From Cellulomonas cellasea (lineage in GTDB: Bacteria; Actinomycetota; Actinomycetes; Actinomycetales; Cellulomonadaceae): a stretch of 49,569 bases of DNA. The first letter of the stretch is position 1. Each line of letters starts with the position of its first letter. The notes under the pieces were generated by a model that did no database searches, had not been told where the DNA came from, and worked only from the letters and a program-made list of their open reading frames with translations. Both the position numbers and the translations under genes were made by a program. Shown here one piece after another: positions 8,987 to 31,137 of the stretch. The stretch is taken from positions 1-49,569 of the forward strand of contig NZ_BJLR01000029.1 in the NCBI RefSeq assembly GCF_006538745.1, in the 5' to 3' direction.

Positions 8987-10447
8987 TCAGCCGCCCGGCG
9001 CCGCGTTGCGCGCGTGGTGCGGGCTGTCCGGGTTGAGCAGCGAGTGCCGGCGCCCGTACGCGAAGTACAGGACGAGCCCGATCACGAGCCACACCCCGAA
9101 GCGCACCCAGGTCTCCCAGTGCAGCTGCAGGATCAGGAACAGCGACGCCAGCACGCCAAACGCGGGGACGAACGGCATGAGCGGGAGCCGGAACGAGCGC
9201 TCGGCGTCGGGGCGCGTCCGGCGGAACATGATGACCGCGACGCACACGACGACGAACGCCGACAGGATGCCGATGTTCGTCAGGTCCGCGACCGCCCGGA
9301 TCGGGAAGACGCCCGCCAGCAGCGCCGACGCGATGCCGGCGATCCAGGTGACCCGCTGCGGCGTCCCGTGCCGGTCGACGCCCGCGAACCACGTCGGCAG
9401 CAGCCCGTCGCGGCTCATCGAGAACCACACGCGCGTCACGCCGAGCAGGAACGTCAGCATGACGGTGAGGATCGACAGCACCGCGAACACGGAGATGATG
9501 CTCGCGATCACCGGGAGCCCGACGTTGGTGAACGCCGAGGCGAAGCCCGCGGTCGGGTCGATCTCCTCGTAGCTCTGCAGGCCGGTGAGCACCAGCGTGG
9601 CCGCGACGTAGAGCAGCATCGCGATGATCAGCGACAGGAGGATCGCCTTCGGCATGTGCTTGCGGCCGTCCTGCGCCTCCTCGGCGGCGGTCGACATCGC
9701 GTCGTACCCGAAGACCGCGAAGAACACCATCGCCGCGCCGGTCAGGACCGGGCCGAAGCCGTTGGGCAGGAACGGGTCGTAGTTCGCGGTGTCGATGTAG
9801 AAGACGCCCAGCCCGATGATGAACAGGATCAGCACGACCTTGATCGCGACGGCGACGAGCTCGAAGCGCCCGAAGGTCCGCGTGCCCCGGCTCAGGATGA
9901 ACGTCACGAGCAGGCAGATCAGCAACGCGGGGACGTTGACGACGCCGCCCTCCTCCTCGGGGCTCGCCGTGACGGCCGTCGGCAGCTCGAGGCCGAACCC
10001 CGCGAGGAACGCGTCGAGGTAGCCGGAGATGCCGATCGCGACGACCGCGACGATCGCGATGTACTCGAGCAGCAGGTCCCACCCGATGAACCAGCCGACG
10101 ATCTCGCCGATCGCGACGTACCCGTACGTGTAGGCCGACCCGGCGCGCGGGATCATGCCCGCGAACTCCGCGTACGACAGCGCCGCCGCCGCGGACGCGA
10201 GGCCGGCGACGAGGAACGAGATCAGCACCGCCGGGCCGACCCCGGGGTTCTCCGCGTCGCCGTGCGCGACGAGCCCGGCCAGGGAGAAGATCCCCACGCC
10301 GATGATCCCGCCGACCCCGATCGCCGTGAGCTGCCACAGCCCGAGGCTCTTCGTGAGCCGGCCCGCACCGCTCTCGCTCTCCACCTCGTCCATCCGGTCG
10401 ACGGGCATCCGTCGCCAGATCGAGCGCTGATCCCTCGACACGACCAT
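8987..10447 (-). CDS. APC-superfamily amino acid permease (cationic amino acid transporter type)
   Basis: A 486-residue membrane protein with about twelve hydrophobic segments. The start of helix 1 (IGVGGIIGVGIFSLAG) is the APC substrate-binding unwound region, and helix 3 has FAGMIPRAGSAYTYGYVAIGE. MVFFAVFGYDAMSTAAEEAQDGRKHMPKAI is the helix 6 region typical of the CAT/YfnA group, which imports basic or other amino acids by proton coupling. GAGGGGAG about 8 bases upstream supports the ATG at 10447. It is a single gene, convergent to dinB. Substrate cannot be set from the sequence. Confidence 0.88.
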   Translation of the reverse strand: MVVSRDQRSIWRRMPVDRMDEVESESGAGRLTKSLGLWQLTAIGVGGIIGVGIFSLAGLVAHGDAENPGVGPAVLISFLVAGLASAAAALSYAEFAGMIPRAGSAYTYGYVAIGEIVGWFIGWDLLLEYIAIVAVVAIGISGYLDAFLAGFGLELPTAVTASPEEEGGVVNVPALLICLLVTFILSRGTRTFGRFELVAVAIKVVLILFIIGLGVFYIDTANYDPFLPNGFGPVLTGAAMVFFAVFGYDAMSTAAEEAQDGRKHMPKAILLSLIIAMLLYVAATLVLTGLQSYEEIDPTAGFASAFTNVGLPVIASIISVFAVLSILTVMLTFLLGVTRVWFSMSRDGLLPTWFAGVDRHGTPQRVTWIAGIASALLAGVFPIRAVADLTNIGILSAFVVVCVAVIMFRRTRPDAERSFRLPLMPFVPAFGVLASLFLILQLHWETWVRFGVWLVIGLVLYFAYGRRHSLLNPDSPHHARNAAPGG

Positions 10448-12593: not shown

Positions 12594-13148
12594 TTACGCG
12601 GGCGGGCGACGCAGCAGGAAGAAGAACGGCCGGGGCATCCCGCGCAGGTCCATGACGCCGAGCAGCGTCCGGTCGTCGACCCGGCGGAACACGTCGATGA
12701 TCGGCACGGCGTCGTAGACCATCGCGGTGGTGCGCACCCCGCGGTGCTCCACGGTCCGCAGCCGCGAGCGCGGCGCACGGGTCGCGAGCAGCGGGAGCAG
12801 GCCGCGGAACGCCCGGTCGACGAGCGGGAGGCGCGCGAGACCGGGCCGGCGCGTGAGGAGCGCCACCGGGAGGCGTCCGGGGTCGACCGACCACAGCGTT
12901 CCGTGCGCACCCCGGAAGACGAGCGGGTGCCCGTCCTCCGTCCCCGCGAACCGCTTGCCGTGCCAGCCGAGCCGCTCGAGCAGCCCGTCGAACGGGTGCC
13001 CGGTCGGGACGCCCGCACCGAGCCAGGCGCCGAGCACCTCCCCCACGTCGACCGGAGGGAGCGCGTCGAAGACCGCGAGCACGTGCTCGGTCGTCCCGCC
13101 GGCCCGCAGCGCGTCGACGAGCGCGAGCCCGTCCGAGGCAGCCGTCAT
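12594..13148 (-). CDS. DUF4334 / GXWXG-domain protein
   Basis: A 184-residue protein. The N-terminal GXWXG region (about 33-75) has VLGAWLGAGVPTGHPFDGLLERLGWHGKRF. The C-terminal DUF4334 part (about 110-184) has RTVEHRGVRTTAMVYDAVPIID and DRTLLGVMDLRGMPRPFFFLLRR. The molecular role of the family is unknown; members occur beside oxidoreductases and in lipid-related contexts. The ATG at 13148 overlaps the stop of the upstream DUF1992 gene by 4 bp (ATGA), so the two are translationally coupled. Confidence 0.82.
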   Translation of the reverse strand: MTAASDGLALVDALRAGGTTEHVLAVFDALPPVDVGEVLGAWLGAGVPTGHPFDGLLERLGWHGKRFAGTEDGHPLVFRGAHGTLWSVDPGRLPVALLTRRPGLARLPLVDRAFRGLLPLLATRAPRSRLRTVEHRGVRTTAMVYDAVPIIDVFRRVDDRTLLGVMDLRGMPRPFFFLLRRPPA

Positions 13149-13927
13149 CCCGGGCCGCCGCTCGACGAGCGGTCGCGCGCGTGCGCCGCGCCGCGCAGCC
13201 GCCCCAGCACGCGCGGCCAGGACCGCGACCGGCTGGCGGTGCGGTGCTCCGCGGCCGCGGACCGGGCCTCCTCCTGCGCCCGCGCCGCCGCCTCCGCGTG
13301 ACGCGCGCGCCGCCGCTCGTGCCAGCGCGCGACCTCGGACTCGACGTCGCGCAGCGGCGTGACGACCGGCGGCCCGCCGAGGAGCTGGCGGCGCGCCGCG
13401 ACGACCCGGGCGTTGAGCTCCTCGACGAGCTCGCGCACACGCTCCTCGGTGCGTTCCTGGTCGAGGCGGTCGTCGAGCGCCGCGTCGTCCTTGCGGAGCT
13501 GGAGCGCCTCGGGCAGCACGCCGGTGATCTGCTCGCGCTCGATGAGCGCCTTGAGCCACCAGTCCGGGTCGTGGCGGCCCGTGATCCCGGGGATCGGCTT
13601 GCCCGCGAGGGGAAGGTCGTCGAACTCGCCGCGGGCCATCGCCTGCCGCACGAGCTCGTCGGCGAACGAGCCCCGCGCCGCCATGCTCGGCGGCCTCGGC
13701 GCCGGTGGTGCTGTCGCGGGTGCACCGGTGACGGGACCAGCCGCGCCGCCGCGCACCGCGCCGTCACCGCGCACCGCGCCGTCGTCGACCCCTGCGCGCC
13801 CCTCGGACCCCGCGCCGTCACCCGGCGCGGCGGCGTCGTCCAGCGCGGCGCCCGCGTCCCGCTCCTGCTCGGCGAGCCGGTCGAGCCGGTACTGCAGTGC
13901 GCGGCGCTGGGGGTCGTGGTCCTGCAT
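13145..13927 (-). CDS. DUF1992 (DnaJ-subfamily-C-28-like) protein
   Basis: A 260-residue cytoplasmic protein. An Ala/Gly/Asp-rich linker (about 25-80) separates a short N-terminal helix from the DUF1992 core: SFADELVRQAMARGEFDDLPLAGKPIPGI then WWLKALIEREQITGVLPEALQLRKD. The C-terminus (about 165-235) is a charged coiled-coil-like helix. DUF1992 is shared with eukaryotic DNAJC28, but no J-domain is present. The ATG at 13927 is used; a GTG two codons earlier (13933) is equally possible. First gene of a two-gene unit with the DUF4334 gene. Confidence 0.82.
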   Translation of the reverse strand: MQDHDPQRRALQYRLDRLAEQERDAGAALDDAAAPGDGAGSEGRAGVDDGAVRGDGAVRGGAAGPVTGAPATAPPAPRPPSMAARGSFADELVRQAMARGEFDDLPLAGKPIPGITGRHDPDWWLKALIEREQITGVLPEALQLRKDDAALDDRLDQERTEERVRELVEELNARVVAARRQLLGGPPVVTPLRDVESEVARWHERRRARHAEAAARAQEEARSAAAEHRTASRSRSWPRVLGRLRGAAHARDRSSSGGPG

Positions 13928-18867: not shown

Positions 18868-19851
18868 TCACGCCAGGTCGAACGTCGCGACGACCGGCGC
18901 GTGGTCCGACTCGGGGTACTTGCGGTCGACCGCGAACGCCGCCGACTCGTCGTGCAGCACCTCGTTGTGGATCTCCGAGCCGCGGTAGTGCTCGAGCAGG
19001 TTCCGCGTCACGAGCATGTGGTCGAGCATCTGCCCGCGCCCCTGGTGGTACAGCGTCACGCGCGAGGACTCGGGGACGGTGTTCTCGATCGGGACGAGGA
19101 CCCGGTGCACGAGCTCGGGGTTGCCGGTGTCCTCGACGTTGCCGCGCACGGCGAGCACCGACACCTCGTCGGGCCCGGCGTTGAAGTCGCCGGCGACCAC
19201 GACCCGCGCGCCGGGGTCCGCGTCGAGGACCTGGTCGACGAGCCGGCGCGTCTCGAGCGCCTGCGCCATGCGCTTCATGGCCGACAGGAACGACCCCTCG
19301 GCCCAGCCGTCCGCGGTGCGCCACGTGAAGCTGTCGACGCGCTGACCCGGGATGTCGGTCGCGAGCTTGGACTTCCAGTGCACGTCCACGACGTGCAGGG
19401 CTGTGCCGTCGGGCAGCTGCAGGACGACGTGCAGGATCGGGCGCTCGATCCCGACGACGACGGCGGCCGCGTCGGGCGGCACGGCCGTCAGGCGCCGGTA
19501 CGTCAGCGGCGCGACGAGGTCGTTGCGCAGCTGCTCGACGGCGAGCACGGGCAGGTGGCTGACCACGACGAGGTTGCGCTCGTCGAACACCTCGCCGCCC
19601 TGCGTGCGGGTGCTCGTCATGGTGGCGCCCTCGAGCGCGGTGCCGCGGAGCAGCTCGGTGAGGGCGTGCAGCCCGCGCGGCTGCCTGTCGCGCTCCTGGC
19701 CGTTGACCTCCTGGAGGCACAGGACGTCCGCCCGCAGCCGGGCGATCTGCGGGCGCATGAGGAGGACCCGTTCGGCGAGCGACGGGCGCGCGCCGGGCGG
19801 CGTCTCGTCGAGGTTCTCGACGTTGAAGGTCGCGATGCGGAGCTCGGCCAT
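18868..19851 (-). CDS. Endonuclease/exonuclease/phosphatase (EEP) family protein
   Basis: A 327-residue EEP-fold hydrolase. Motifs in order: LRIATFNVENL, DVLCLQEVN, ERNLVVVSHLPV, HVVDVHWKSK, VVVAGDFNAGPD, GQMLDHMLVTRNL and the C-terminal SDHAPVVATFDL. All metal and catalytic residues (N, E, D/N, D/H) are present. VHWKSK is typical of nuclease-like rather than inositol-phosphatase members. No signal peptide or membrane segment. GGGAG precedes the ATG at 19851. Role unknown; DNA/RNA or phosphodiester hydrolysis is likely. Confidence 0.87.
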   Translation of the reverse strand: MAELRIATFNVENLDETPPGARPSLAERVLLMRPQIARLRADVLCLQEVNGQERDRQPRGLHALTELLRGTALEGATMTSTRTQGGEVFDERNLVVVSHLPVLAVEQLRNDLVAPLTYRRLTAVPPDAAAVVVGIERPILHVVLQLPDGTALHVVDVHWKSKLATDIPGQRVDSFTWRTADGWAEGSFLSAMKRMAQALETRRLVDQVLDADPGARVVVAGDFNAGPDEVSVLAVRGNVEDTGNPELVHRVLVPIENTVPESSRVTLYHQGRGQMLDHMLVTRNLLEHYRGSEIHNEVLHDESAAFAVDRKYPESDHAPVVATFDLA

Positions 19852-20217: not shown

Positions 20218-23200
20218 ATGACGCGTTCACCCGCGCGTTGGACAGCACGAGGGGCGGCTCTGCTCGCCGTGGTCATGGCAGCTGCCGTGGCCCCGGGCGC
20301 GGCAGCCGCCTCGACCACCACCGACCTGGCCGCGGCCGCCGACGAGCCCGTCGTCGTCCTCGGTACCGACTTCGAGGACGGCACCTGGGCCCCGTGGACG
20401 CAGAGCGGCGCGGCGCCGCTCTCGGTCGTCGACGTCGACGGCGGCAAGGCGCTCCTCGTGAGCGGCCGCGCGGCCGACTACGAGGGCATCCAGTCCCCCA
20501 CCGGGCTGCTCGAGCCCGGCGCGTCCTACACGTTCTCGATGCGGGCCCGGCTCGCCGAGGGCACCGAGGGCTCGGCGGGCATCCGGTTCGTCGTCAAGCC
20601 CGACTACACGTGGGTCGGGAACACGACGATGACCGCCGACGCGTGGACGACCGTGACCGGCTCCTTCACGGCGCCCGCGGCGGCCGACCCGGCGACGCTC
20701 CAGGTCTACCTGGGCACCGGCGACCTCGCCGCGCCGTACGACTACCTCGTCGACGACCTCGTCCTGACGGCGGCCGGCGGAGGCGGCGGCGAGCCCGACC
20801 CCGACGTGGTCCCGGGCGGCGCGGTCAACCCCGTGCCGACCCCGGTGACGACCGCGCGCGGCACCGGGAACGTCGCCGCGCTGACGTTCGACGACGGCCC
20901 CAACCCCGGCGAGACCGACGACCTGCTCGACCTCCTCGCCGAGAACGACCTGACCGCGACGTTCTGCGTCATCGGCCAGAACGTCCAGGCCGAGGGCGGC
21001 GCCGCGCTGCTGCGCCGGATCGTCGACGAGGGCCACACGGTCTGCAACCACACGACGACCTACGCCGACATGGGCAGCTGGACGCCCGAGCAGATCCGCG
21101 CGGACCTGGCCCGGAACCTCGCGATCATCCGTGAGGCCGCCGGGGACCCCGAGCTCGAGGTCCCGTACTTCCGCGCGCCGAACGGCAGCTGGGGTGCGAC
21201 CCCGGCCGTCGCCGTCGAGCTCGGCATGCAGCCGCTCGGCCTCGGCAACGTCATCTCCGACTGGGACGGCAACGACCTGTCCGAGGAGACGCTGACCGCG
21301 AACCTGCGCGCAGCCGTCACGCCCGGCGCGGTCGTGCTGGTGCACGACGGCGGCGGCGACCGCGCGAACGGCATCGCAGCCGTCCGCACCGTCCTCGGCG
21401 AGCGCCTCGCGGAGGGCTGGACGTTCACGCTGCCCACGGGCGGCGCCGCTCCGACCGTCACGTCGCTGAGCAGCGACTTCGAGGACGGCCTCGACGGCTG
21501 GGTCCCGCGCGGCGACGCCGACGGCGACCCCACGGTCGAGGTCACCACCACGCAGGCGCACGGCGGCACGCAGGCGGCGCTCGTGACCGGGCGCACGACC
21601 CAGGGCGACGGCATCGGCCGCGACGTCACGGGTCTGCTCACGGCGGGCACGACCTACGACATCAGCGCCTGGGTCCGGTTCGGCGAGGGCGCCCCGACCG
21701 ACGACGTCTGGCTCAGCCTGCAGCGCACGAGCGAGGGCGCGACGACGTACGACACCGTCGCGCAGCTCACGGGCGTGACCTCCGGTGCGTGGCACGAGAT
21801 CCGGGCGACGTACCAGATGCCCGAGGCCGAGTCCGCGTTCCTCTACCTCGAGACCTCCTACCCCGACGGCTCGGCGGCCGACCTCCTGGTCGACGACGTC
21901 GTCATCTCCGCGAAGCAGCCCAGCGAGGTCCAGGACCTCACGCCGCTGCAGGACACGGTCGACTTCCCGGTCGGCGTCGCGATCGACAGCCGCGAGACCA
22001 CCGGCCCCGCGGCCGAGCTGCTCCTGCGGCACTTCGACCAGATCACGGGCGAGAACCACATGAAGCCCGAGGCCTGGTACACGGACGCGCGCGAGTTCCG
22101 CACGCACCCCGAGGCCACGACGCTCATGGAGTTCGCGCAGGAGAACGACGTGCGCGTCTACGGGCACACGCTCGTGTGGCACAGCCAGACCCCGGCGTGG
22201 TTCTTCACGCACGAGGACGGCACGCCGCTCACCACGAGCGAAGCCGACAAGCAGGAGCTGCGGATGCGCATGCGGACGCACATCTTCGACGTCGCCGAGG
22301 CGCTCAGCACCGGCGGCGGCTACGGCCTCTTCGGCAGCGAGACGAACCCGGTCGTCGCGTTCGACGTGGTCAACGAGGTCGTCTCCGACGGCCGCAGCGA
22401 GGAGGACGGGCTGCGCCGCAGCGAGTGGTACCGGGTGCTCGGCGAGGAGTTCATCGACCTCGCGTTCCGGTACGCCGACGAGGCGTTCAACGGCGAGTTC
22501 GCGGTCGAGGGCGAGCGTCCCGTGACGCTCACGATCAACGACTACAACACCGAGCAGGTCGGCAAGCAGCAGCGCCTGCACGCGCTCGTCGAGCGGCTGC
22601 TCGCCCGGGACGTCCCGGTCGACGCGGTCGGCCACCAGTTCCACGTGAGCCTGGCCATGCCGGTCCAGGCCCTCGAGGACGCGATCGTCGCGTTCGACGA
22701 CCTGGGCCTGACGCAGGTCGTCTCGGAGCTCGACGTCACGACGGGCACGCCGGTCACGCAGGCGAGCCTCATCGAGCAGGGCTACTACTACCGCGACGCG
22801 TTCCGGATCTTCCGCGAGCACGCCGAGGACCTGTTCTCGGTGACGGTGTGGGGCCTGACCGACGGTCGCAGCTGGCGCGTCGACTCGGGCGCCCCGCTGC
22901 TGTTCGACGACGCGCTGCAGGCCAAGCCGGCGTACTACGGCGCGGTCGACGGCGAGCTTTCGGCCCGCCAGCGTGCGGCGAACGCGTTCCGTGGGGACGT
23001 CGCCGTCGCCGCGGGCGCCACGGGCGCGGTCGAGTGGCGGCAGCTGCCGCTGCAGACGGTCGAGGACGTCGCCGGCTTCTCGGTGCGCTGGGAGGCCGAC
23101 CACCTGTCGGTCTACGCCCGGGTCACCGACGCCACCGTCGACGCGTCCGACGCGGTCACGTTCGTCGTCGGCGAGGAGTCGTACACCGTCGGGCGCAACG

Positions 23201-24291
23201 GCGAGGCCGAGGTCGAGGCCGTCGTCGAGGCGGTCGACGGCGGGTACGCGGTCGTCGCGCACCTGCCCCGCACCTCGGCCGAGGGCGACCAGGTGAGCTT
23301 CGACGTCCGGGTCACCGACGGCGAGAGCAGCGCGGCGTGGAACCAGCCGGGCGTGCTCGGGACGCTCACGCTCGTCGAGGCCCTGTCCACCACCCAGGTG
23401 GTCGAGGCCGCGGGGGCTCCCGTGATCGACGGCCAGGTCGACGCCGCGTGGGCGTCGGCGAACGCCGTCACGACCGACAAGCAGATCGAGGGCGAGGGCG
23501 GCGCGACCGCGAACGTGCGGACGCTCTGGCGCGAGAACACCCTCTACGTGCTCGCCGAGGTCACGGACCCGACGCTCGACGCCACGGGCTCCGACCCGTG
23601 GGTCCAGGACTCGCTCGAGATCTTCCTCGACGCGGGCAACGTCAAGAACGGCCCCTACCGCTACGACGACACGCAGATCCGCATCAGCTACCTCAACGAG
23701 GCGTCGTTCGGGACGGGTGACGAGGCGTTCCAGCAGAACCGCCTCGTGAGCCAGACCAGCACGGTCGCGGGCGGCTACGTCGTCGAGGCGTCGATCAGCC
23801 TGCTCGAGGCTGGCGGCGTGGGGACGTTCCACGGCCTGGACTTCCAGGTCAACGACGCGACGGCCGGCGCGCGCACCGCGGTGCGGGCGTGGGCGGACCC
23901 GACGGGTCGCGGCTACCAGAGCACGGCCCGCTGGGGCGTCGCCGAGCTCGTCCCCGCGGTCGTCGTCCCCGAGCCCGACCCGAGCGTCACCGCGGACCGG
24001 AAGGTCCGGGCCGGCGACCAGCTCGAGGTCACGCTCGAGGGCTACCTCCCGAGCAGCACGGTCGACCTCGTGCTCGAGCGGCGTATCGGGCGCTGGGTCG
24101 TCGCACGCGTCGACCTCGGCGACGTCACGGTCGGCGCGGACGGCTCCGCGACGACCGAGGTGCGGGTCCCGCGCGGGGTCCTGCCGGGCAAGTACACGCT
24201 GCGCGGCACCTCCGGCGAGGTCACGGCCGACACCACGGTGACGGTCCAGCTCGCCAAGCCGTCCTGGTGGTGGGGGTGGTGGCCGTTCTGA
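20218..24291 (+). CDS. Secreted multidomain CE4 deacetylase / GH10 endo-xylanase with CBM9 modules
   Basis: A 1357-residue exported enzyme. Order: signal peptide (1-31), CBM4/9/22-like module (about 45-185), Gly/Pro linker, CE4 NodB deacetylase (about 215-405), second CBM4/9/22-like module (about 412-565), GH10 xylanase (about 575-912), a CBM9-like module (about 918-1055), CBM9 (about 1060-1245) and a beta domain ending in a tryptophan-rich tail (1349-1357). CE4 residues: D225/D226 in TFDDGPNP, H273 and H278, R319 in RAPNGSW, H376 in LVHDG. GH10 residues: acid/base E720 in FDVVNEV, nucleophile E837 in VSELDV. It would deacetylate and cut acetyl-xylan. AAAGGGG precedes the ATG. Organisation resembles Cellulomonas xylanases. 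Confidence 0.93.
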   Translation: MTRSPARWTARGAALLAVVMAAAVAPGAAAASTTTDLAAAADEPVVVLGTDFEDGTWAPWTQSGAAPLSVVDVDGGKALLVSGRAADYEGIQSPTGLLEPGASYTFSMRARLAEGTEGSAGIRFVVKPDYTWVGNTTMTADAWTTVTGSFTAPAAADPATLQVYLGTGDLAAPYDYLVDDLVLTAAGGGGGEPDPDVVPGGAVNPVPTPVTTARGTGNVAALTFDDGPNPGETDDLLDLLAENDLTATFCVIGQNVQAEGGAALLRRIVDEGHTVCNHTTTYADMGSWTPEQIRADLARNLAIIREAAGDPELEVPYFRAPNGSWGATPAVAVELGMQPLGLGNVISDWDGNDLSEETLTANLRAAVTPGAVVLVHDGGGDRANGIAAVRTVLGERLAEGWTFTLPTGGAAPTVTSLSSDFEDGLDGWVPRGDADGDPTVEVTTTQAHGGTQAALVTGRTTQGDGIGRDVTGLLTAGTTYDISAWVRFGEGAPTDDVWLSLQRTSEGATTYDTVAQLTGVTSGAWHEIRATYQMPEAESAFLYLETSYPDGSAADLLVDDVVISAKQPSEVQDLTPLQDTVDFPVGVAIDSRETTGPAAELLLRHFDQITGENHMKPEAWYTDAREFRTHPEATTLMEFAQENDVRVYGHTLVWHSQTPAWFFTHEDGTPLTTSEADKQELRMRMRTHIFDVAEALSTGGGYGLFGSETNPVVAFDVVNEVVSDGRSEEDGLRRSEWYRVLGEEFIDLAFRYADEAFNGEFAVEGERPVTLTINDYNTEQVGKQQRLHALVERLLARDVPVDAVGHQFHVSLAMPVQALEDAIVAFDDLGLTQVVSELDVTTGTPVTQASLIEQGYYYRDAFRIFREHAEDLFSVTVWGLTDGRSWRVDSGAPLLFDDALQAKPAYYGAVDGELSARQRAANAFRGDVAVAAGATGAVEWRQLPLQTVEDVAGFSVRWEADHLSVYARVTDATVDASDAVTFVVGEESYTVGRNGEAEVEAVVEAVDGGYAVVAHLPRTSAEGDQVSFDVRVTDGESSAAWNQPGVLGTLTLVEALSTTQVVEAAGAPVIDGQVDAAWASANAVTTDKQIEGEGGATANVRTLWRENTLYVLAEVTDPTLDATGSDPWVQDSLEIFLDAGNVKNGPYRYDDTQIRISYLNEASFGTGDEAFQQNRLVSQTSTVAGGYVVEASISLLEAGGVGTFHGLDFQVNDATAGARTAVRAWADPTGRGYQSTARWGVAELVPAVVVPEPDPSVTADRKVRAGDQLEVTLEGYLPSSTVDLVLERRIGRWVVARVDLGDVTVGADGSATTEVRVPRGVLPGKYTLRGTSGEVTADTTVTVQLAKPSWWWGWWPF

Positions 24292-25559
24292 GCACCACCG
24301 CTCCCGGGCACCGCACCGCCGACGCCACGCTGACCGTGCGTGGCGCCGGCGGGCGGCCCCTGGCCGACACCGAGGTCGTCGTCGAGCAGACGCGTCACGC
24401 GTTCTCGTTCGGCAACATCGGCTTCGACTTCATCGGGCTCGCGAACGACGAGACGGAGGCGCTCCCGGACAGCCCGTTCGGGGGCGCCCCGCCCGCGAGC
24501 GCCGCACGGCTCGCGGACCTGTTCCTCGACGTGTTCAACACGGTGACCCTGCCGTTCTACTGGGGCGGCTTCGAGCCGCGCCGGGGCGAGCCGGACACGG
24601 CGCGGCTGCTGCGCACCGCGCAGTGGTTCGCCGAGCGCGGGGTCACGGTCAAGGGCCACCCGCTGGTCTGGCACACGGTCACCGCCGACTGGCTGCGCGA
24701 GCTCTCGACCGACGAGGTCGAGGCCGCGCAGCGGGCCCGGATCCGGCGCGAGGTCACCGACTTCGCGGGGGTCGTGGACGTGTGGGACGCGATCAACGAG
24801 GTCGTGATCATGCCCGTCTTCGACAACGAGGAGCACCGCAACGGCATCACGCGGCTCTGCTACGAGCGGGGGCGCATCGCGACGATCCGGATGGCGTTCG
24901 AGGAGGCGCGCGTGGCCAACCCCCGCGCGACGCTGCTGCTCAACGACTTCGACCTGTCGACGGCGTACGAGTGCCTCATCGAGGGCGTGCTCGAGGCCGG
25001 CATCCGGATCGACGCGATCGGGCTGCAGAGCCACATGCACCAGGGCTACTGGGGCGAGGAGAAGACGCTGCGCATCCTCGACCGCTTCGCGCGGTACGGG
25101 CTGCCGCTGCACCTGACCGAGAGCACGCTGCTCTCGGGCGACCTCATGCCGGCGCACATCAAGGACCTGAACGACTACCAGGTCCCGTCGTGGCCCTCGA
25201 CGCCGGAGGGCGAGGAGCGGCAGGCAGAGGAGATCGTGCGGCACTACCGCACGCTCGTCGGGCACCCCGCGGTGCAGGCCGTGAACTACTGGGGGATCTC
25301 CGACGAGGGCGCCTGGCTCGGTGCACCCGTCGGGCTCGTGCGCACGGACGGCACCCCCAAGCCGTCGTACGACGCGCTGCGCGGGCTGGTCCGGGGCGAG
25401 TGGTGGCACGGGCCGACGACGCTGCGCACCGACGCGTCGGGCCGGGTCGCCGTCCGCGGGTTCCTCGGCGACTACCGGGTCTCGTCCGGCGACGCGGCGG
25501 CGTCGTTCGCGCTCACGACCCCCGGCACCGTGGAGGCCGAGGTGTCGCTCCCCCGCTGA
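24279..25559 (+). CDS. GH10 endo-1,4-beta-xylanase without signal peptide
   Basis: A 426-residue GH10 enzyme. A short N-terminal beta domain (about 13-45, TADATLTVRGAGGRPLADTEV) precedes the barrel, and a small C-terminal beta domain follows (about 380-426). Catalytic residues: acid/base E174 in VWDAINEVV and nucleophile E281 in LHLTEST. Substrate-site motifs VKGHPLVWH and GLQSHMHQGYW are present. There is no signal peptide, so it probably acts inside the cell on imported xylo-oligosaccharides. The start is GTG 24279 (or 24276), overlapping the last codons of the secreted xylanase, whose Trp codons supply the G-rich ribosome binding site. Confidence 0.88.
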   Translation: MAVLSTTAPGHRTADATLTVRGAGGRPLADTEVVVEQTRHAFSFGNIGFDFIGLANDETEALPDSPFGGAPPASAARLADLFLDVFNTVTLPFYWGGFEPRRGEPDTARLLRTAQWFAERGVTVKGHPLVWHTVTADWLRELSTDEVEAAQRARIRREVTDFAGVVDVWDAINEVVIMPVFDNEEHRNGITRLCYERGRIATIRMAFEEARVANPRATLLLNDFDLSTAYECLIEGVLEAGIRIDAIGLQSHMHQGYWGEEKTLRILDRFARYGLPLHLTESTLLSGDLMPAHIKDLNDYQVPSWPSTPEGEERQAEEIVRHYRTLVGHPAVQAVNYWGISDEGAWLGAPVGLVRTDGTPKPSYDALRGLVRGEWWHGPTTLRTDASGRVAVRGFLGDYRVSSGDAAASFALTTPGTVEAEVSLPR

Positions 25560-25649: not shown

Positions 25650-27023
25650 TCAGAGCGGGATGTCGACGAACGGGGGGAGTCGACCCTCGCCGCGCGTCCG
25701 GTCGGCCTTCGACAGGAGCGACGACCAGGCCGCGCGCACCGGGACGCCCTTCGTGGCGGCGCGCCGTGCGACGTGGCCGGCGAGCAGCGCGGCCGAGAAC
25801 GACGTGCCGCCCCAGCGCCCCTGGCCACCGAACGGCTTCTCCGTCGTCGTCCCGTCGTCGAGCTCGACCGTGCCGGTCAGGTAGGTGCTCAGCAGGTTCT
25901 CCCCCGGCACCACGACGTCGATCCACGGCGCGTCCGGCGGCGTGAACGGCGCGAGCGTCGCCGAGCGGGACCTCTTCTTCGTCGCGGCGACCCGTGCCGA
26001 GCCGACCGCGACGACGTCGTCGAGCGCGGCGGGCCACGCCGGCTCGCGCGCGTCCACGCGCAGCTCCCCGTCGGGTCGCTCGCCGGCGAGCTGCTGGGCC
26101 ACGAGCGGGTCCGCGTGGTTGCCCGAGCAGGCCACGACGAGGACCTCGGGCGGGAGGCGGTCGACCGCGGCGGCGAGCGCGAGCGGCGGGCGGGAGTCCG
26201 AGGTGTAGCAGACGAGCGAGAGGTTGAGCACGTCGATCCCGCTGCGTCCGAGCGCGACGATCCCGCGCGCGACGTCCCACGACGACGCCGCACCGCGGTC
26301 GTCGAGCACCCGTCGCACACGCACGGTCGCGCCCGGCGCGCGCTGCAGCACGAGCCCGGTCACGAACGTCGCGTGCCCGGCGGCGACCGGGAGCGGCCCG
26401 TCGCCCGGCACGAGCCGGTCGGACTCGTCCGCGAGGTAGCGGCCCGCGAGCGCCGGGTGCGCGAGCACCGCGGTGTCGAGCACGCCGACCGTGATCCCCG
26501 CACCGCCGCTGCCGTCGAGCCGCACGACGTCGTCCGTCCGGACCGGGGGCGGCCCGCCGCCGTGCGAGACGGTCCCGCCGCCGTTGGTCACGAGCCCGAG
26601 GAACCGGTTCTTGCCCATCGTCGGGAACCAGCCGGAGTACCGGTCGGCCAGGGAGGTCCGCAGCAGCGTGAGGAGCTCGTCGGCGTCGTCCGGCTCGAGC
26701 CCGCCGTCGGCGGCCCGGCGCGCGGGTCGGACGTACGTCTCCCGGAGACCGGGTGGAGTCCCGTCGTCCGGCACGGCCGCCCCCGCGCCCGGCGCCGGTC
26801 GCTGCGCCCGCTCGCGCCGCCACCCGTCGAGCAGCGCCTCGAGGTGCTCGCGCGGGTAGGCGATCCGGCTCAGGCCCAGGTCGGCGTCGCTCTCGTGCGT
26901 GTAGCCGGCGGCTCCCCAGCGGTCGAGCGTCGCCCGGACGAGCCCGTCGTGCTCGCCGGCGACGAGCAGGTCCACGGTCGCGGACGGCGTCGCGGTGGGG
27001 CGCCTCGGGGTCTGCTCGGACAT
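25650..27023 (-). CDS. Subtilase (S8) serine protease, cytoplasmic type
   Basis: A 457-residue S8 protease. The catalytic triad is D183 (GVLDTAVLAHP), H217 (GHATFVTGLVL) and S408 (GGTSFSAALLAGH); oxyanion N302 is in SGNH. The first 175 residues have no signal peptide and no recognisable inhibitor propeptide, but resemble a charged adaptor region (DLLVAGEHDGLVRATLDRWG). A secreted role is therefore unlikely. GGAGG precedes the ATG. The gene is divergent, by 145 bp, from the TPR-CHAT gene, suggesting joint control. Conserved pairing of S8 and CHAT genes in actinobacteria is recalled, not checked. Confidence 0.9.
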   Translation of the reverse strand: MSEQTPRRPTATPSATVDLLVAGEHDGLVRATLDRWGAAGYTHESDADLGLSRIAYPREHLEALLDGWRRERAQRPAPGAGAAVPDDGTPPGLRETYVRPARRAADGGLEPDDADELLTLLRTSLADRYSGWFPTMGKNRFLGLVTNGGGTVSHGGGPPPVRTDDVVRLDGSGGAGITVGVLDTAVLAHPALAGRYLADESDRLVPGDGPLPVAAGHATFVTGLVLQRAPGATVRVRRVLDDRGAASSWDVARGIVALGRSGIDVLNLSLVCYTSDSRPPLALAAAVDRLPPEVLVVACSGNHADPLVAQQLAGERPDGELRVDAREPAWPAALDDVVAVGSARVAATKKRSRSATLAPFTPPDAPWIDVVVPGENLLSTYLTGTVELDDGTTTEKPFGGQGRWGGTSFSAALLAGHVARRAATKGVPVRAAWSSLLSKADRTRGEGRLPPFVDIPL

Positions 27024-27099
27024 GTGCGCCTCCGTACCCGGCGGGATCCGCCCAGTCTCGCAGCGGCCCCCTCCGCCCGGAAGGGACGAGGTCTGCCCG

Positions 27100-27128
27100 T
27101 TGACGAAGCGGTCCGCGCGCGCGACCGT
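27100..27128 (+). promoter_or_regulatory. Candidate promoter of the TPR-CHAT gene
   Basis: TTGACG at 27100-27105 and GACCGT at 27123-27128, spaced 17 bp, giving a leader of about 34 bases. It lies in the 145-bp region shared with the divergent subtilase gene. Confidence 0.35.
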
Positions 27129-27168
27129 CGGAGCAGGACGTGCGCACGGCCGGGACGAGGCGAGTGAC

Positions 27169-29910
27169 GTGACGGAGCTCAGGGTCGACGCCGACGAGGC
27201 GCTGCGGCTGGCGGGGGTCGACCCCGCGGCCGCGGTCCTGCTCGCGGGCGACGTCGCCCCGGCGGCCCGTGCGGCGCGTGCGTGGGCGGCCGCGTGCGTC
27301 GCGGAGCGGGCGCTCGGCGTCGCCGCGATGCAGCAGTCCCGGCTCGACGACGCGCTCGCGCACCTGCGGGCGGCGGTCCGGGCCGGGCGCCGCGCGGCCG
27401 ACGCCCGACTGACCGGCGAGGCCCGGATGAGCCTCGCGTCCGCGCTCATGCTCCGTGGCCGGCCCCGGCAGTCCGCGCAGGAGATCGGCCGCGCGCTCGC
27501 CGACCTCGACGGCGTCGCAGCGGCCCGTGCACTGACGCAGCGCGCCGCGATCTCCCAGGAGCTCGGCCGCCTCGACGACGCGTTCGACGACCTGCGCCGC
27601 GCCCTGCCGGTGCTGCGGCGAGCGGGTGATGTCCAGTGGGCGACGCGCGCGCTGTCCAACCGCGGGCTGCTGCACACGGCCCGGCGCGAGTTCGCCGCGG
27701 CCGAGGCCGACCTCGTCGCCGCGGGCCGGCTGTGCACCGAGCACGGGCTGCGGCTGCCCGGCGCGATCGTGGCGCACAACCTCGGGTGGGTGCACGCGCA
27801 GCGCGGTGACGTCCCCGCCGCCCTGCGGCACCTGGCGTCCGCCGAGGCCGCGTTCACGGGCCTGGGGCTGGCGTCGGGGTCGATCCTCACCGACCGTGCC
27901 GAGCTGCTGCTCTCGGTGCGCCTCGTCGACGAGGCACGCGCGACCGCGGAGGCGGCCGTCGCGGCCGACGAGCGGGACGGGCGGCGCAACCACCTGCCCG
28001 AGGCCCGGCTCCTGCTCTCGACGATCGCGCTCGTCCAGGGCGACGCGGAGCAGGCCCGGGCGGCGGCCGAGACGGCGATGCACGACTTCGGTCGGATGGG
28101 CCGCACCGAGTGGACGACCCTCGCGCGGTACGCGCGCGTCCAGGCGCTCGTCGAGGCGGACCGGGCCGTGACCCCGGCGCAGGTCCGGCGCGTCGCCGAG
28201 GCGCTCGCGCAGTCGGGCTGGGCCGTCCCGGCCCTCGAGGCCCGCATCCTCGCCGCCCGGCTCGCCCTGCGCCGGGGGGACGCCGCCGGGGCGCGCCGCG
28301 ACCTCGCGGAGGCCGGCCGGGCGCGGCGCGCAGGACCCGCGGACGCGCGCGCCCGTGCGTGGCTCGCCGAGGCGATGCTCCGGGAGCAGACCGGCAACCG
28401 CCACGGCGCCGTGGCGGCCCTGCGCGCCGGGCTGCGGGTCGTCGAGGACCACCGCGCGACGCTCGGCGCGACCGAGCTGCGCGCGCACGTCACGGTGCAC
28501 CGCGGCGCGATCGCCCGGATGGGCCTGCGCCTCGCGCTCGAGGACCGCGACGCGCGGCACGTGCTGTGGTGGGCCGAGTGCAACCGCGCGACCGCGACGC
28601 TGCTGCGCCGTGCGCACCCGCCCGAGGACGCGGCGCTCGCGGACCTGCTCGCCCGGCTGCGCGCCACGATGACCGCGATCGAGGAACGGCGGACCGCGGG
28701 GGTCACGGCGTCCGCCGCGGTCGCGCAGCAGGTCGGGCTCGAGCGCACGATCCGCGACCGCTGCCGCGAGCTGCCCGGACGCGACGGCGACGTGCCGGTG
28801 CGCCCACGACCGGTCCCCGAGCTGCAGCACGCGCTGCGCGGTGCGGCCCTCGTGGAGTACGTCGAGCACGACGGCCGGCTGCTCGCGGTGACCGTGACCG
28901 CGGGGCACGTCCGGCTGCACGCGCTCGCGACGGTCGAGGAGGTCCGCGCGCAGGTCGAGCTCGTGGGCTTCGCGCTGCGCCGGCTCGCCGCGGGGACCGC
29001 ACGCCCGGCGAGCCTCGCGGCGGCGGAGACGGTGCTCGCCCGTGCCGGGGACCGGCTCGACGCGCTGCTCGCGCTCCCGCTGCGCGGCGCGCTCGGCGAC
29101 CGGCCGCTCGTGGTCGTCCCGGTCGGCGTCCTGCAGCAGGTGCCGTGGTCGGTGCTCCCCTCGTGCCGCGGCCGCGCCGTGAGCGTGAGCCCCTCGGCGA
29201 CGCTGTGGCACGCGGCCGCCGGTCGGAGCGCGCCCGGGGACGGGCGGGTCGTCGTGGTCGCCGGCCCCGGACTGCCGGGGGCGCGGGCCGAGGCGGACGC
29301 GGTGGCCGCCGAGTACCCGGGCGCACGTGTGCTCGTCGGGCCCGACGCCGCCGCAGGACCCGTCGCGGCGGCGATCGACGGGGCGGCGCTCGTGCACCTC
29401 GCGGCCCACGGGCGGCTGCGCTCGGACAACCCGATGTTCTCCGCGCTGACCCTCGCGGACGGCCCGTTCACGGTGCACGACCTCGAGCGCGTCCCGCGCG
29501 CGCCGCACCACGTCGTGCTGGCCGCGTGCGACACCGCCCGGTCCGAGGTCGTCGGCGGCGGAGAGATCCTGGGGTTCACCGCGGCCCTGCTCGCGGGCGG
29601 GACGGCGACGCTCGTCGCGCCCGTCGTCCCCGTCGCGGACGCCCAGACGGTCACGCTCGTCGTGGCGTACCACCGCGAGCTCGGCCGCGGCCGTACGCCC
29701 GCGGAGGCGCTCGCGCACGCCCAGCTCGCGCTCGCCGGCTCGGACGAGCAGTCCCGGGCGGCCGCGGCGGGATTCGTGGTGCTCGGGCACGGCGACCGGC
29801 CCGGCTCCGGACCCACCGGGCCGCCGCGCGTCCCGGGGGTGGACGTGACGCTGCCGAGGCACGCCGACCTCGCGGCAGCCACGCCCGTCGCCGCCGGGCT
29901 GCCCGGGTGA
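27169..29910 (+). CDS. TPR-CHAT protein, caspase-like protease
   Basis: A 913-residue protein. About 1-560 is a helical array with repeated TPR-like units (for example LDDALAHLRAAVRAGRRAADA, LDDAFDDLRRALPVLRRAGD, VPAALRHLASAEAAF). The C-terminal CHAT domain (about 620-890) is a clan CD cysteine protease with H747 in LVHLAAHGRLRSDNPMF and C787 in HVVLAACDTA. Both catalytic residues are intact. No signal peptide or membrane segment. The GTG at 27169 follows GACGAGG; the frame upstream is not convincing. The Cys-His pair and TPR sensor layout are those of proteases activated by a bound partner. Next genes are a 63-codon ORF and a 150-residue protein, then a convergent sigma factor. Confidence 0.9.
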   Translation: MTELRVDADEALRLAGVDPAAAVLLAGDVAPAARAARAWAAACVAERALGVAAMQQSRLDDALAHLRAAVRAGRRAADARLTGEARMSLASALMLRGRPRQSAQEIGRALADLDGVAAARALTQRAAISQELGRLDDAFDDLRRALPVLRRAGDVQWATRALSNRGLLHTARREFAAAEADLVAAGRLCTEHGLRLPGAIVAHNLGWVHAQRGDVPAALRHLASAEAAFTGLGLASGSILTDRAELLLSVRLVDEARATAEAAVAADERDGRRNHLPEARLLLSTIALVQGDAEQARAAAETAMHDFGRMGRTEWTTLARYARVQALVEADRAVTPAQVRRVAEALAQSGWAVPALEARILAARLALRRGDAAGARRDLAEAGRARRAGPADARARAWLAEAMLREQTGNRHGAVAALRAGLRVVEDHRATLGATELRAHVTVHRGAIARMGLRLALEDRDARHVLWWAECNRATATLLRRAHPPEDAALADLLARLRATMTAIEERRTAGVTASAAVAQQVGLERTIRDRCRELPGRDGDVPVRPRPVPELQHALRGAALVEYVEHDGRLLAVTVTAGHVRLHALATVEEVRAQVELVGFALRRLAAGTARPASLAAAETVLARAGDRLDALLALPLRGALGDRPLVVVPVGVLQQVPWSVLPSCRGRAVSVSPSATLWHAAAGRSAPGDGRVVVVAGPGLPGARAEADAVAAEYPGARVLVGPDAAAGPVAAAIDGAALVHLAAHGRLRSDNPMFSALTLADGPFTVHDLERVPRAPHHVVLAACDTARSEVVGGGEILGFTAALLAGGTATLVAPVVPVADAQTVTLVVAYHRELGRGRTPAEALAHAQLALAGSDEQSRAAAAGFVVLGHGDRPGSGPTGPPRVPGVDVTLPRHADLAAATPVAAGLPG

Positions 29911-30098
29911 GCAGCACGGCTGCCCCGACGGGCAGCACGCCGCGTCCGGTGTATCAGCGCCGCCGGTCGACGCTCCCCCGGGTGGTGCACCTGCACCAGG
30001 GGCGCGCCGAGCGCACCGCGGTGGGACGCTGGGACCGGGGCTCCGGCACCGGCGACGCGCCACGGGCCCCGCGGACGAGCGGACGGGGACGACGATGA
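29907..30098 (+). CDS. Possible 63-residue linker ORF in the CHAT operon
   Basis: A GTG overlaps the CHAT stop (GTGA, 29907-29910) and its own TGA overlaps the ATG of the next gene (ATGA, 30095-30098). The frame thus fits exactly between two 4-bp overlaps. The product (starts VSSTAAPTGSTPRPVYQRRR, ends in an arginine-rich tail) is basic and unstructured and I do not recognise it. It may be a genuine small protein, a coupling device, or chance in a GC-rich gap. Confidence 0.35.
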   Translation: MSSTAAPTGSTPRPVYQRRRSTLPRVVHLHQGRAERTAVGRWDRGSGTGDAPRAPRTSGRGRR

Positions 30099-30547
30099 CG
30101 CAGCCACGATGGACCGACGACGACGAGCTGCTCGCGGACCTGCGCGCCGCGCTGGGCCGCGCCACGCCGGCGAGCGCGCGCGAGCTCGAGGGGGCACGGG
30201 CCGCGTTCACGTGGCGGACCGTCGACGCCGAGCTCGCGACCCTGAGCTACGACTCGCTGCTCGACGACCGCGTCCTGGTCCGCGGAGCGGCCACGGCGCC
30301 GCGCAGCCTCGTGTTCGACGCCCCCGACCTCACGGTCGAGCTCGAGGTCACCGGCGAGCGCCTCGTCGGCCAGCTCGTGCCCCCGGGCCCGGGCGACGTC
30401 GTGCTGCAGACCGCCGACGGCCGGGAGTCGCCCGTGCCGGCGGACGACGCCGGCTGCTTCTCCGTCGCCGCGCCGCCCGGCACCCGCATCCGGCTGCGCT
30501 GCACCACGCCGTCCGCGACCGTCGTGACCGACTGGGTGCGGACCTAG
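30095..30547 (+). CDS. Unknown 150-residue protein between CHAT and sigma factor genes
   Basis: An N-terminal helical part (about 8-65: DELLADLRAAL, then ELEGARAAFTWRTVDAELATLSYDSLLDD) is followed by a beta-rich domain (about 66-150) with SLVFDAPDLTVELEVTGERLVGQLVPPGPGDVVLQTADG. That domain resembles carboxypeptidase-regulatory-like or Ig-like folds. No signal peptide, membrane segment or zinc motif, so it is not a classical membrane anti-sigma factor. Its stop codon overlaps that of the convergent ECF sigma gene by 4 bp. Position between a protease and a sigma factor makes a regulatory or substrate role possible. Function unknown. Confidence 0.75.
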   Translation: MTQPRWTDDDELLADLRAALGRATPASARELEGARAAFTWRTVDAELATLSYDSLLDDRVLVRGAATAPRSLVFDAPDLTVELEVTGERLVGQLVPPGPGDVVLQTADGRESPVPADDAGCFSVAAPPGTRIRLRCTTPSATVVTDWVRT

Positions 30548-31137
30548 ACGTCCGCCGCCGCGGCGATCCACGCGGCGACGGCCGGGTTCTCCCGGATGCG
30601 CTGCAGGGCTCGCGCGCGCGTCGGCCCGATGCTCCCGATCGGGATCCCGAGCCGTGCGCTGACCTCGGCGTAGCTCGGCGGCGGGTCCTGCACGAGGACC
30701 AGGAGCAGCTCGCGGTGCTGCTCGGACAGCTCCGCGAACGCCCGCAGGAGGAGCTCGTGGCGGCCGGCCTGGTCGAGGTCCTCGACGACCTCCTCGTCGA
30801 GCCGCGCGGTCGCGGGCGGCTCGTGGTCGATCCCGGGGCCGAGCGGGTCGACCGGCTGCGTGCGCCGGCGTGCGCGCAGCAGGCGCAGGCACTCGTTGCG
30901 TGCCGTGGCGACGATCCAGCCCGGCAGGGCGGCGGGCTCGCGCAGGTCGTCGAGGTGCTCCACGAGCCGCAGCCAGAGCGTCTGCACGACGTCCTCGACG
31001 TCCGAGCCCTGCAGCCGGTAGCGCCGCACGATGCCGTGCACGAGCGGCGTGAACCGCACGACGAGCTCGTCCCAGGCCGTCTGCTGCCCTCCGCGCGCCG
31101 CGAGGACGAGCTCCGCGACGGAGACGTCGTCCGCCAT
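30544..31137 (-). CDS. ECF-type RNA polymerase sigma factor
   Basis: A 197-residue sigma-70 family factor of the ECF group. Region 2 (about 12-85) has WDELVVRFTPLVHGIVRRY and DVEDVVQTLWLRLVEHLDDLREPAALPGWIVATARNECLRLLR. Region 4 (about 125-185) has LLRAFAELSEQHRELLLVL and the helix-turn-helix YAEVSARLGIPIGSIGPTRARALQRIR. Regions 1 and 3 are missing, as expected. GGGAGG precedes the ATG at 31137. No typical zinc anti-sigma gene is adjacent; the convergent 150-residue protein is the nearest partner candidate. Confidence 0.9.
   Translation of the reverse strand: MADDVSVAELVLAARGGQQTAWDELVVRFTPLVHGIVRRYRLQGSDVEDVVQTLWLRLVEHLDDLREPAALPGWIVATARNECLRLLRARRRTQPVDPLGPGIDHEPPATARLDEEVVEDLDQAGRHELLLRAFAELSEQHRELLLVLVQDPPPSYAEVSARLGIPIGSIGPTRARALQRIRENPAVAAWIAAAADV

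Follow-up and report, generated by a model that had tools for sequence, protein, structure and literature searches.

A conserved protease and sigma factor gene cluster in Cellulomonas cellasea: a possible ECF54-type switch with a candidate anti-sigma factor

A cluster of four genes in Cellulomonas cellasea may encode a proteolytic switch that controls a sigma factor. It lies in a 49,569-nt stretch of DNA (the window; assembly GCF_006538745.1, contig NZ_BJLR01000029.1, positions 1 to 49,569) and encodes a subtilase of the S8 family, a cysteine protease combining tetratricopeptide repeats (TPR) with a CHAT domain, a protein of 150 aa, and an extracytoplasmic function (ECF) sigma factor. With a probability only slightly above one half (about 0.53), we propose that this is a switch of the ECF54 type, in which the 150-aa protein acts as an anti-sigma factor until a protease of the locus cuts it, freeing an autoregulated sigma factor. 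The N-terminal helices of the soluble 150-aa protein would hold the sigma factor, while its C-terminal beta sandwich would sense a signal or dock a protease. The locus proteases would be activated by a trigger from inside the cell, which the TPR array and/or the subtilase would detect, and one of them would cut the anti-sigma factor in a flexible linker, probably after Arg63 (R63). The freed sigma factor would then transcribe its own locus from TGTATC-N17-CTCC promoters and thereby also renew its inhibitor; in the window, the candidate promoter stands before the inhibitor gene itself.

The S8 gene (25650..27023, minus strand, 457 aa) and the TPR-CHAT gene (27169..29910, plus strand, GTG start, 913 aa) diverge from a 145-bp gap, and the gene for the 150-aa protein (30095..30547, plus strand) converges on the sigma factor gene (30544..31137, minus strand, 197 aa), with which it shares 4 nt at the stop ends. 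This layout is the one given in a preliminary description of this DNA. Pfam identifies Peptidase_S8 (E-value 2.8e-18), CHAT (2.8e-35) together with TPR_1/TPR_12, and Sigma70_r2 (1.9e-15), and NCBIfam agrees (S8, CHAT with TPRs, ECF sigma factor). The 150-aa protein of the window, searched alone, has no Pfam match up to an E-value of 0.5 and none in NCBIfam. No signal peptide is apparent by eye in either protease (no signal-peptide program was used).

Searches with the 150-aa protein detected it in 8 of 59 relatives (own genome counted) and in 20 of the 396 genomes of the order, and a 19-row alignment of its family matched 48 of 396 genomes of the phylum. As an unbiased test of linkage, a named genome collection was searched with the sigma factor alignment only, ignoring the other three genes; the best 80 of 570 confirmed matches were kept, which biases this set to closer relatives. 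Within 9 kb, the 150-aa gene was present in 73/80 of these loci, TPR-CHAT in 70/80, the subtilase in 67/80 and all four families in 64/80, and some of the loci missing a family are contig ends. The loci span Cellulomonas, Nocardioides, Lentzea, Geodermatophilus, Kribbella, Saccharothrix, Actinoplanes and others. A comparison set of 20 regions around off-locus matches to the promoter-like motif contained seven further clusters, 12 regions with none of the four families and one with only a weak, generic sigma factor match. The four genes are not chance neighbours, and the cluster is conserved across many actinobacteria; the preliminary description had named such neighbourhood in related genera among the tests of its proposal. 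No fusion between any two of the four proteins was detected among the open reading frames of the loci collected when this was checked. Tandem S8/150-aa/CHAT gene sets were observed in two loci with a single sigma factor gene per locus (L184:6240-17402 and L185:4896-16402), and in Geodermatophilus chilensis (L098) the CHAT gene is flanked by two different 150-aa genes (9602-10066 and 12803-13273). Phage-borne copies of the sigma factor were looked for and the idea set aside, as six records match, at 25-36% identity.

The 150-aa gene is closely coupled to the sigma factor gene. Among 132 sigma factor matches, it lies directly downstream on the same strand in 116, is convergent in seven, absent in seven and far away in two; for the 127 distinct matches, the respective numbers are 112, 6, 7 and 2. 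Because loci L011-L088 in these counts had been fetched via the cluster's own proteins, mostly the 150-aa protein, 73/80 is the unbiased figure. Downstream of the sigma factor is the classical place of an anti-sigma factor gene, and 88 of the 112 downstream genes overlap the sigma factor gene, from which we infer co-transcription, but not in the window, where the two genes are convergent. An AlphaFold2 model of the 150-aa protein (mean predicted local distance difference test score, pLDDT, 90) consists of two N-terminal helices (residues 9-22 and 28-41) followed by a beta sandwich. The Pfam family CarboxypepD_reg is matched at an E-value of 0.1 or better by 58 of 107 aligned family members, the window's own protein not being among them.

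Elsewhere in the phylum, one lineage of family rank (L169-L179) has a longer orthologue at the same place of the cluster, and all four families are present in five of these loci (L170, L171, L172, L176 and L177). Ten of the 11 long variants were aligned (alignment A4; L175, which has no readable N-terminus, was left out), and nine of the ten are matched by the NCBIfam anti-sigma factor model, with a best E-value of 5.3e-5 over residues 12-87, below the cut-off of that model. RskA_N (0.008) and zf-HC2 (0.11) match one long variant each. Homology between the long and short families begins at residue 23 of the window protein and continues from there (profile alignment, probability 98%, E-value 1.4e-13). 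The first aligned residues, PP.EVR..L..RF, look by eye like helix 4 of a class I anti-sigma domain. According to the accessible text of PMC7406223, sigma2 is the target of this helix, and CnrY, a class II protein of two helices, contacts sigma4 and sigma2 in much the same way. These matches suggest that deep orthologues of the 150-aa protein carry an anti-sigma-like N-terminus.

R63 is the only fully invariant column of the 150-aa family, being conserved in 126/126 non-redundant members (of 158 matches), long and divergent ones included. The next residue is S, G, A or D in 121/126 members, and the preceding one is V in 86/126. R63 is located within a variable, gap-prone linker (positions 55-69), and the confidence of the AlphaFold2 model is lowest in this region (block 61-70, pLDDT 71). 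Since an invariant basic residue is followed by small residues in a flexible linker, R63 (codon at 30281..30283, plus strand) is a candidate protease cleavage site from its sequence context, with R63 as the proposed P1 residue and the cut between R and G of VRG.

A dyad screen upstream of genes yielded the promoter-like motif GTATC-N17-CTCC. In 157 distinct loci (2.13 Mb), TGTATC-N17/18-CTCC has 67 matches, 48 of which are upstream of a cluster gene, that is, within 320 nt 5' of it or up to 60 nt inside it, on the right strand. About three would be expected there, given that the upstream space makes up about 5% of the sequence. The 48 sites precede sigma factor (29), S8 (17) and 150-aa genes (2), and none precedes CHAT. 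Five control patterns were counted, reversed, scrambled and far-spacing versions among them: three gave one or two matches and one gave none, in no case upstream, while the fifth (spacing 8-9) gave four, three of them upstream. Outside the discovery set, the seven further clusters of the comparison set (L219, L220, L221, L223, L233, L234 and L237) were all reached through the strict motif, the 20 regions having been picked by hand, partly for paired matches; the sigma factor of L237 is a 73-aa piece, and in L234 the motif stands at the far end of CHAT. A matrix version, trained on the same loci that it scored, found an upstream site in 94/157 loci; 129 loci had a match at all, and in 73 of them the best one was upstream.

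In the 4.73-Mb genome of the window, TGTATCA-N16/17-CTCC occurs once, at 29950..29976 (plus strand, spacing N16), 145 nt before the 150-aa gene. This is also the best matrix match of the window (18.7 bits, with the window and its sister excluded from training), a score that is not decisive alone because ten shuffles reach maxima of 6.4-19.6 bits. Ahead of the 150-aa gene, the strict motif is also found in the sister locus L011, likewise convergent, and a motif-like site in the convergent loci L089 and L160. The second-best matrix match of the window (19982, minus strand, 14.6 bits), within the range of the shuffles, lies 131 nt before a gene of the endonuclease/exonuclease/phosphatase family (18868-19851). 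Elsewhere, the motif was seen just 3' of the CHAT gene (L221:6557 and L234:6884, both minus strand), with a DUF1304 gene about 1 kb beyond it (scanned in L221), and pairs of motifs about 5.4 kb apart occur in several genomes of one genus (G210, G286 and G313); these sites have no obvious target. As a regulon measure, positions of the strict motif were used and genome-wide counts were not: 125/396 genomes match, but among the matches listed a reversed-pattern control also occurs in many genomes.

Several observations weigh against the proposed switch, and others are taken up with the competing explanations below. The anti-sigma matches stem from the long variant and not from the window's protein, and they score below curated cut-offs (23 vs 100 bits). 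A PDB profile search of the long family lists RskA at a non-significant E-value of 0.46. Foldseek searches with the short and long models (the latter of modest quality, pLDDT 72) gave no match at an E-value of 1e-3 or better, and the top 50 were mainly Ig/FN3-like, with no anti-sigma structure among them. A mean-field coupling analysis of sigma factor and 150-aa protein was dropped: with 130 pairs (effective number of sequences, Neff, 65), 170 of the top 400 couplings were inter-protein vs 205 by chance. As for the motif, it was discovered on part of the loci later used for counting, its strict form is, by our reading, present at the cluster in only 8 of the 20 genomes of the order with the 150-aa gene, and among the convergent loci L161 has a motif-like site only before S8 and L162 has none.

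Both proteases of the window are intact, as the preliminary description had it. Where aligned, the S8 residues D183 (84/84), H217 (85/85), N302 (85/85) and S408 (83/83) are invariant in an alignment of 85 rows, and so are the CHAT dyad residues H747 and C787 (80/80 each; 83 rows, three of them gapped there). The best PDB match of the CHAT domain is 8rot (1.9e-11). Evidence on the acting protease comes from a paralogous locus of the genus (L054-L057), which contains sigma factor, 150-aa and CHAT genes; a cluster-type S8 gene was not found in G001 and G004. A Trypsin_2/Nal1-like protease gene, divergent from the sigma factor operon, adjoins it (L054:12109-13578, L055:5762-7501, L056:12092-13657 and L057:4033-4986; the family was assigned by a scan of the L054 copy and to the other copies by similarity). 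The L054 copy also has many EPFTE-type repeats at its C-terminus. Thus, CHAT is constant at the paralogous locus and the serine protease is exchangeable, and because CHAT stays while the serine protease is swapped, TPR-CHAT is slightly favoured as the cutter, or the two may form a relay. Loci lacking S8 as such had been considered a sign for CHAT as the cutter; this argument was withdrawn, since the trypsin-like protease gene adjoins the paralogous locus.

One sub-case of the proposed switch, with which its odds overlap, assigns the cut at R63 to the serine protease and places CHAT downstream or as the activator of the serine protease. We regard it as a real possibility, somewhat short of an even chance. 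Trypsin-type enzymes commonly cut after Arg, and the paralogous locus has such a protease gene next to it where no nearby S8 was found. Moreover, CHAT has not kept the Arg pocket of the separase type: the Asp that reads P1 Arg in separase aligns to V828, which is V or A in 67/79 members, provided that the PDB chain numbering is that of the paper. Against a serine cutter, CHAT is retained where the serine protease belongs to another family, and most subtilisins are not Arg-specific. The accessible text of PMC9729208 describes the loss of this Asp already in Craspase.

The 150-aa protein could also be an anti-sigma factor that is regulated without cleavage, with R63 and the protein as a whole having a structural or ligand-binding role. 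Invariance alone is no proof of a cut, an invariant Arg could be structural, and CarboxypepD_reg folds often bind ligands or proteins. The location of R63 in a low-confidence, variable linker with small following residues and the presence of two conserved protease active sites speak against this explanation, which we consider rather unlikely.

The association of CHAT, subtilase and ECF54 has already been published, as has a proteolytic model. In its accessible part, a review (PMC8999054) lists ECF54 with CHAT, subtilase and 'carboxypeptidase' neighbours and suggests control by proteolysis, with no anti-sigma factor involved; the model protein named there comes from Geodermatophilus amargosae. 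Locus L161, of that species, contains all four genes, those for the sigma factor and the 150-aa protein being convergent as in the window. Neighbours of the CHAT, subtilase and carboxypeptidase types were found in 70/80, 67/80 and 73/80 loci, respectively, and the sigma factor of the window is ECF54-like by gene context. Given the CarboxypepD_reg matches and the fold of the AlphaFold2 model, the 'carboxypeptidase' of ECF54 is probably the 150-aa protein, with a regulatory-like fold and no peptidase. The CRISPR-independent proteolytic switch suggested in the preliminary description is partly supported; what argues for it here is the four-gene linkage, the coupling of the 150-aa and sigma factor genes, the anti-sigma-like N-terminus of deep orthologues, the invariant Arg and the motif. 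Where the review, as far as its accessible text goes, has no anti-sigma factor, we propose that its 'carboxypeptidase' probably has a fold without enzymatic function and acts as an anti-sigma factor; the promoter motif, the linker Arg and the serine protease swap are likewise absent from that account. Beyond the ECF54, EACC2-caspase and CRISPR literature, we found nothing on the cluster or the motif, although the primary ECF54 papers, which this search did not cover, may claim a motif or an anti-sigma factor.

In the published reading, the proteases act on the sigma factor itself (PMC8999054, accessible part): subtilase and CHAT would degrade it and keep the system off, and the 150-aa protein would be an adaptor or substrate carrier in place of an anti-sigma factor. 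This reading was derived from gene context and is in keeping with the conservation of both proteases with the sigma factor; we consider it improbable. The 150-aa protein tracks the sigma factor at least as closely as the proteases do (73 vs 70 and 67 of 80), its gene is in the usual anti-sigma position, and its deep orthologues have the anti-sigma-like N-terminus. In addition, L049 contains the sigma factor and 150-aa genes, and no gene for either protease lies in the roughly 47 kb of its contig.

The proposed switch with a cleaved anti-sigma factor recalls the type III-E CRISPR system, in which Csx29 cuts Csx30, a protein that binds and inhibits CASP-sigma (PMC10028731, accessible part). Both have a TPR-CHAT protease with a His/Cys dyad, and if our reading is right, the circuits are alike in that cleavage of an inhibiting partner relieves an ECF sigma factor (PMC10028731 and PMC9729208, accessible parts). 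The window, in contrast, has a second protease of the S8 type and a 150-aa CarboxypepD_reg-like partner where Csx30 has 565 residues, and the P1 residue would differ if R63 is right. No CRISPR-like array was detected between 18000 and 42000 of the window (one 2-copy repeat only), PADLOC gave no gRAMP/Cas7-11 or other Cas match at an E-value of 1e-3 or better among the ten neighbouring proteins scanned, in line with the preliminary description, and the CHAT domain is only distantly similar to TPR-CHAT/Csx29 chains (E-values 7.6e-07 to 3.9e-4). For these reasons, the cluster is not a member of type III-E.

Other systems are less close. In the EACC2-caspase neighbourhood, a caspase-fold protease has been proposed to act with an ECF sigma factor and a TPR (DUF1822) protein (PMC8195603, accessible part); none of the four window proteins has a Pfam match to EACC2 or DUF1822, and the description in that part has neither an S8 nor a 150-aa partner. 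Genes of class I (RskA) and class II (CnrY) anti-sigma factors also adjoin an ECF sigma factor gene and encode N-terminal helices (PMC7406223, accessible part), and the long variants match anti-sigma models; the window protein combines no more than two N-terminal helices with a beta sandwich and shows no membrane segment by eye. Proteolysis of the RseA/DegS type, from partial sources, likewise releases an ECF sigma factor under protease control, whereas the four proteins here appear cytoplasmic and the proteases are a cysteine and serine pair. It may further be that the cluster represents a widespread TPR-CHAT switch independent of CRISPR, in which the 150-aa protein is the missing ECF54 anti-sigma factor, the invariant Arg in its disposable linker is a built-in cut site, and a caspase-like protease works in relay with a serine protease that can be exchanged (S8 or trypsin-like); CASP would then be a similar circuit under RNA guidance. 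In this full form, we hold the idea doubtful.

With regard to output, the neighbours of the cluster in the window are housekeeping genes (gyrase/topoisomerase IV A subunit, thymidine kinase and xylanases), which speaks for regulation or stress rather than phage defence. Three loci (L110, L118 and L139) have closely related sigma factor genes, no detected 150-aa gene and an adjoining animal-type haem peroxidase gene; in L110 a motif-like site stands at the called start of this gene, in L118 such a site precedes it by 34 nt, and in L139 there is none. The sites in two of the three sigma-only loci are a weak hint at an oxidative-stress output. Using PADLOC, the CHAT protein of the window matches BovA, of the Borvo defence system, only at an E-value of 0.014 (residues 741-860, not over the whole protein), while five of eight CHAT relatives match one BovA model (best 1.6e-9). 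Phage defence, allowed for in the preliminary description, found nothing in its favour in the surroundings of the cluster: a CRISPR-free switch with defence or cell death as output, like Craspase/CASP, is very improbable, since the likeness of TPR-CHAT, sigma factor and small partner to Csx29, CASP-sigma and Csx30 and the BovA matches of the relatives stand against the housekeeping neighbours, the lack of any PADLOC defence family at an E-value of 1e-3 or better among the ten neighbours scanned, a paralogous locus that we take to sit between ribosomal-protein genes, a sole plasmid-collection match in a record of 11.85 Mb, and the motif-like sites at the haem peroxidase gene. Outside the cluster, the window contains a polysaccharide deacetylase-GH10-CBM fusion of 1357 aa (20218-24291), followed by a second GH10 gene (24267-25559).

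So far, as judged from the accessible part of the published account, ECF54 has offered suggestive neighbours without a testable wiring. With an anti-sigma factor candidate, a single-residue candidate cut site and a promoter motif, the circuit could be rebuilt in E. coli. If the proposed switch is true, caspase-like TPR-CHAT proteases would govern sigma factors as part of normal bacterial physiology and apart from CRISPR, which would give a natural frame for the origin or convergence of Csx29, Csx30 and CASP-sigma. It would also offer a soluble transcription switch, gated by a protease, for use in actinobacteria and in synthetic biology.

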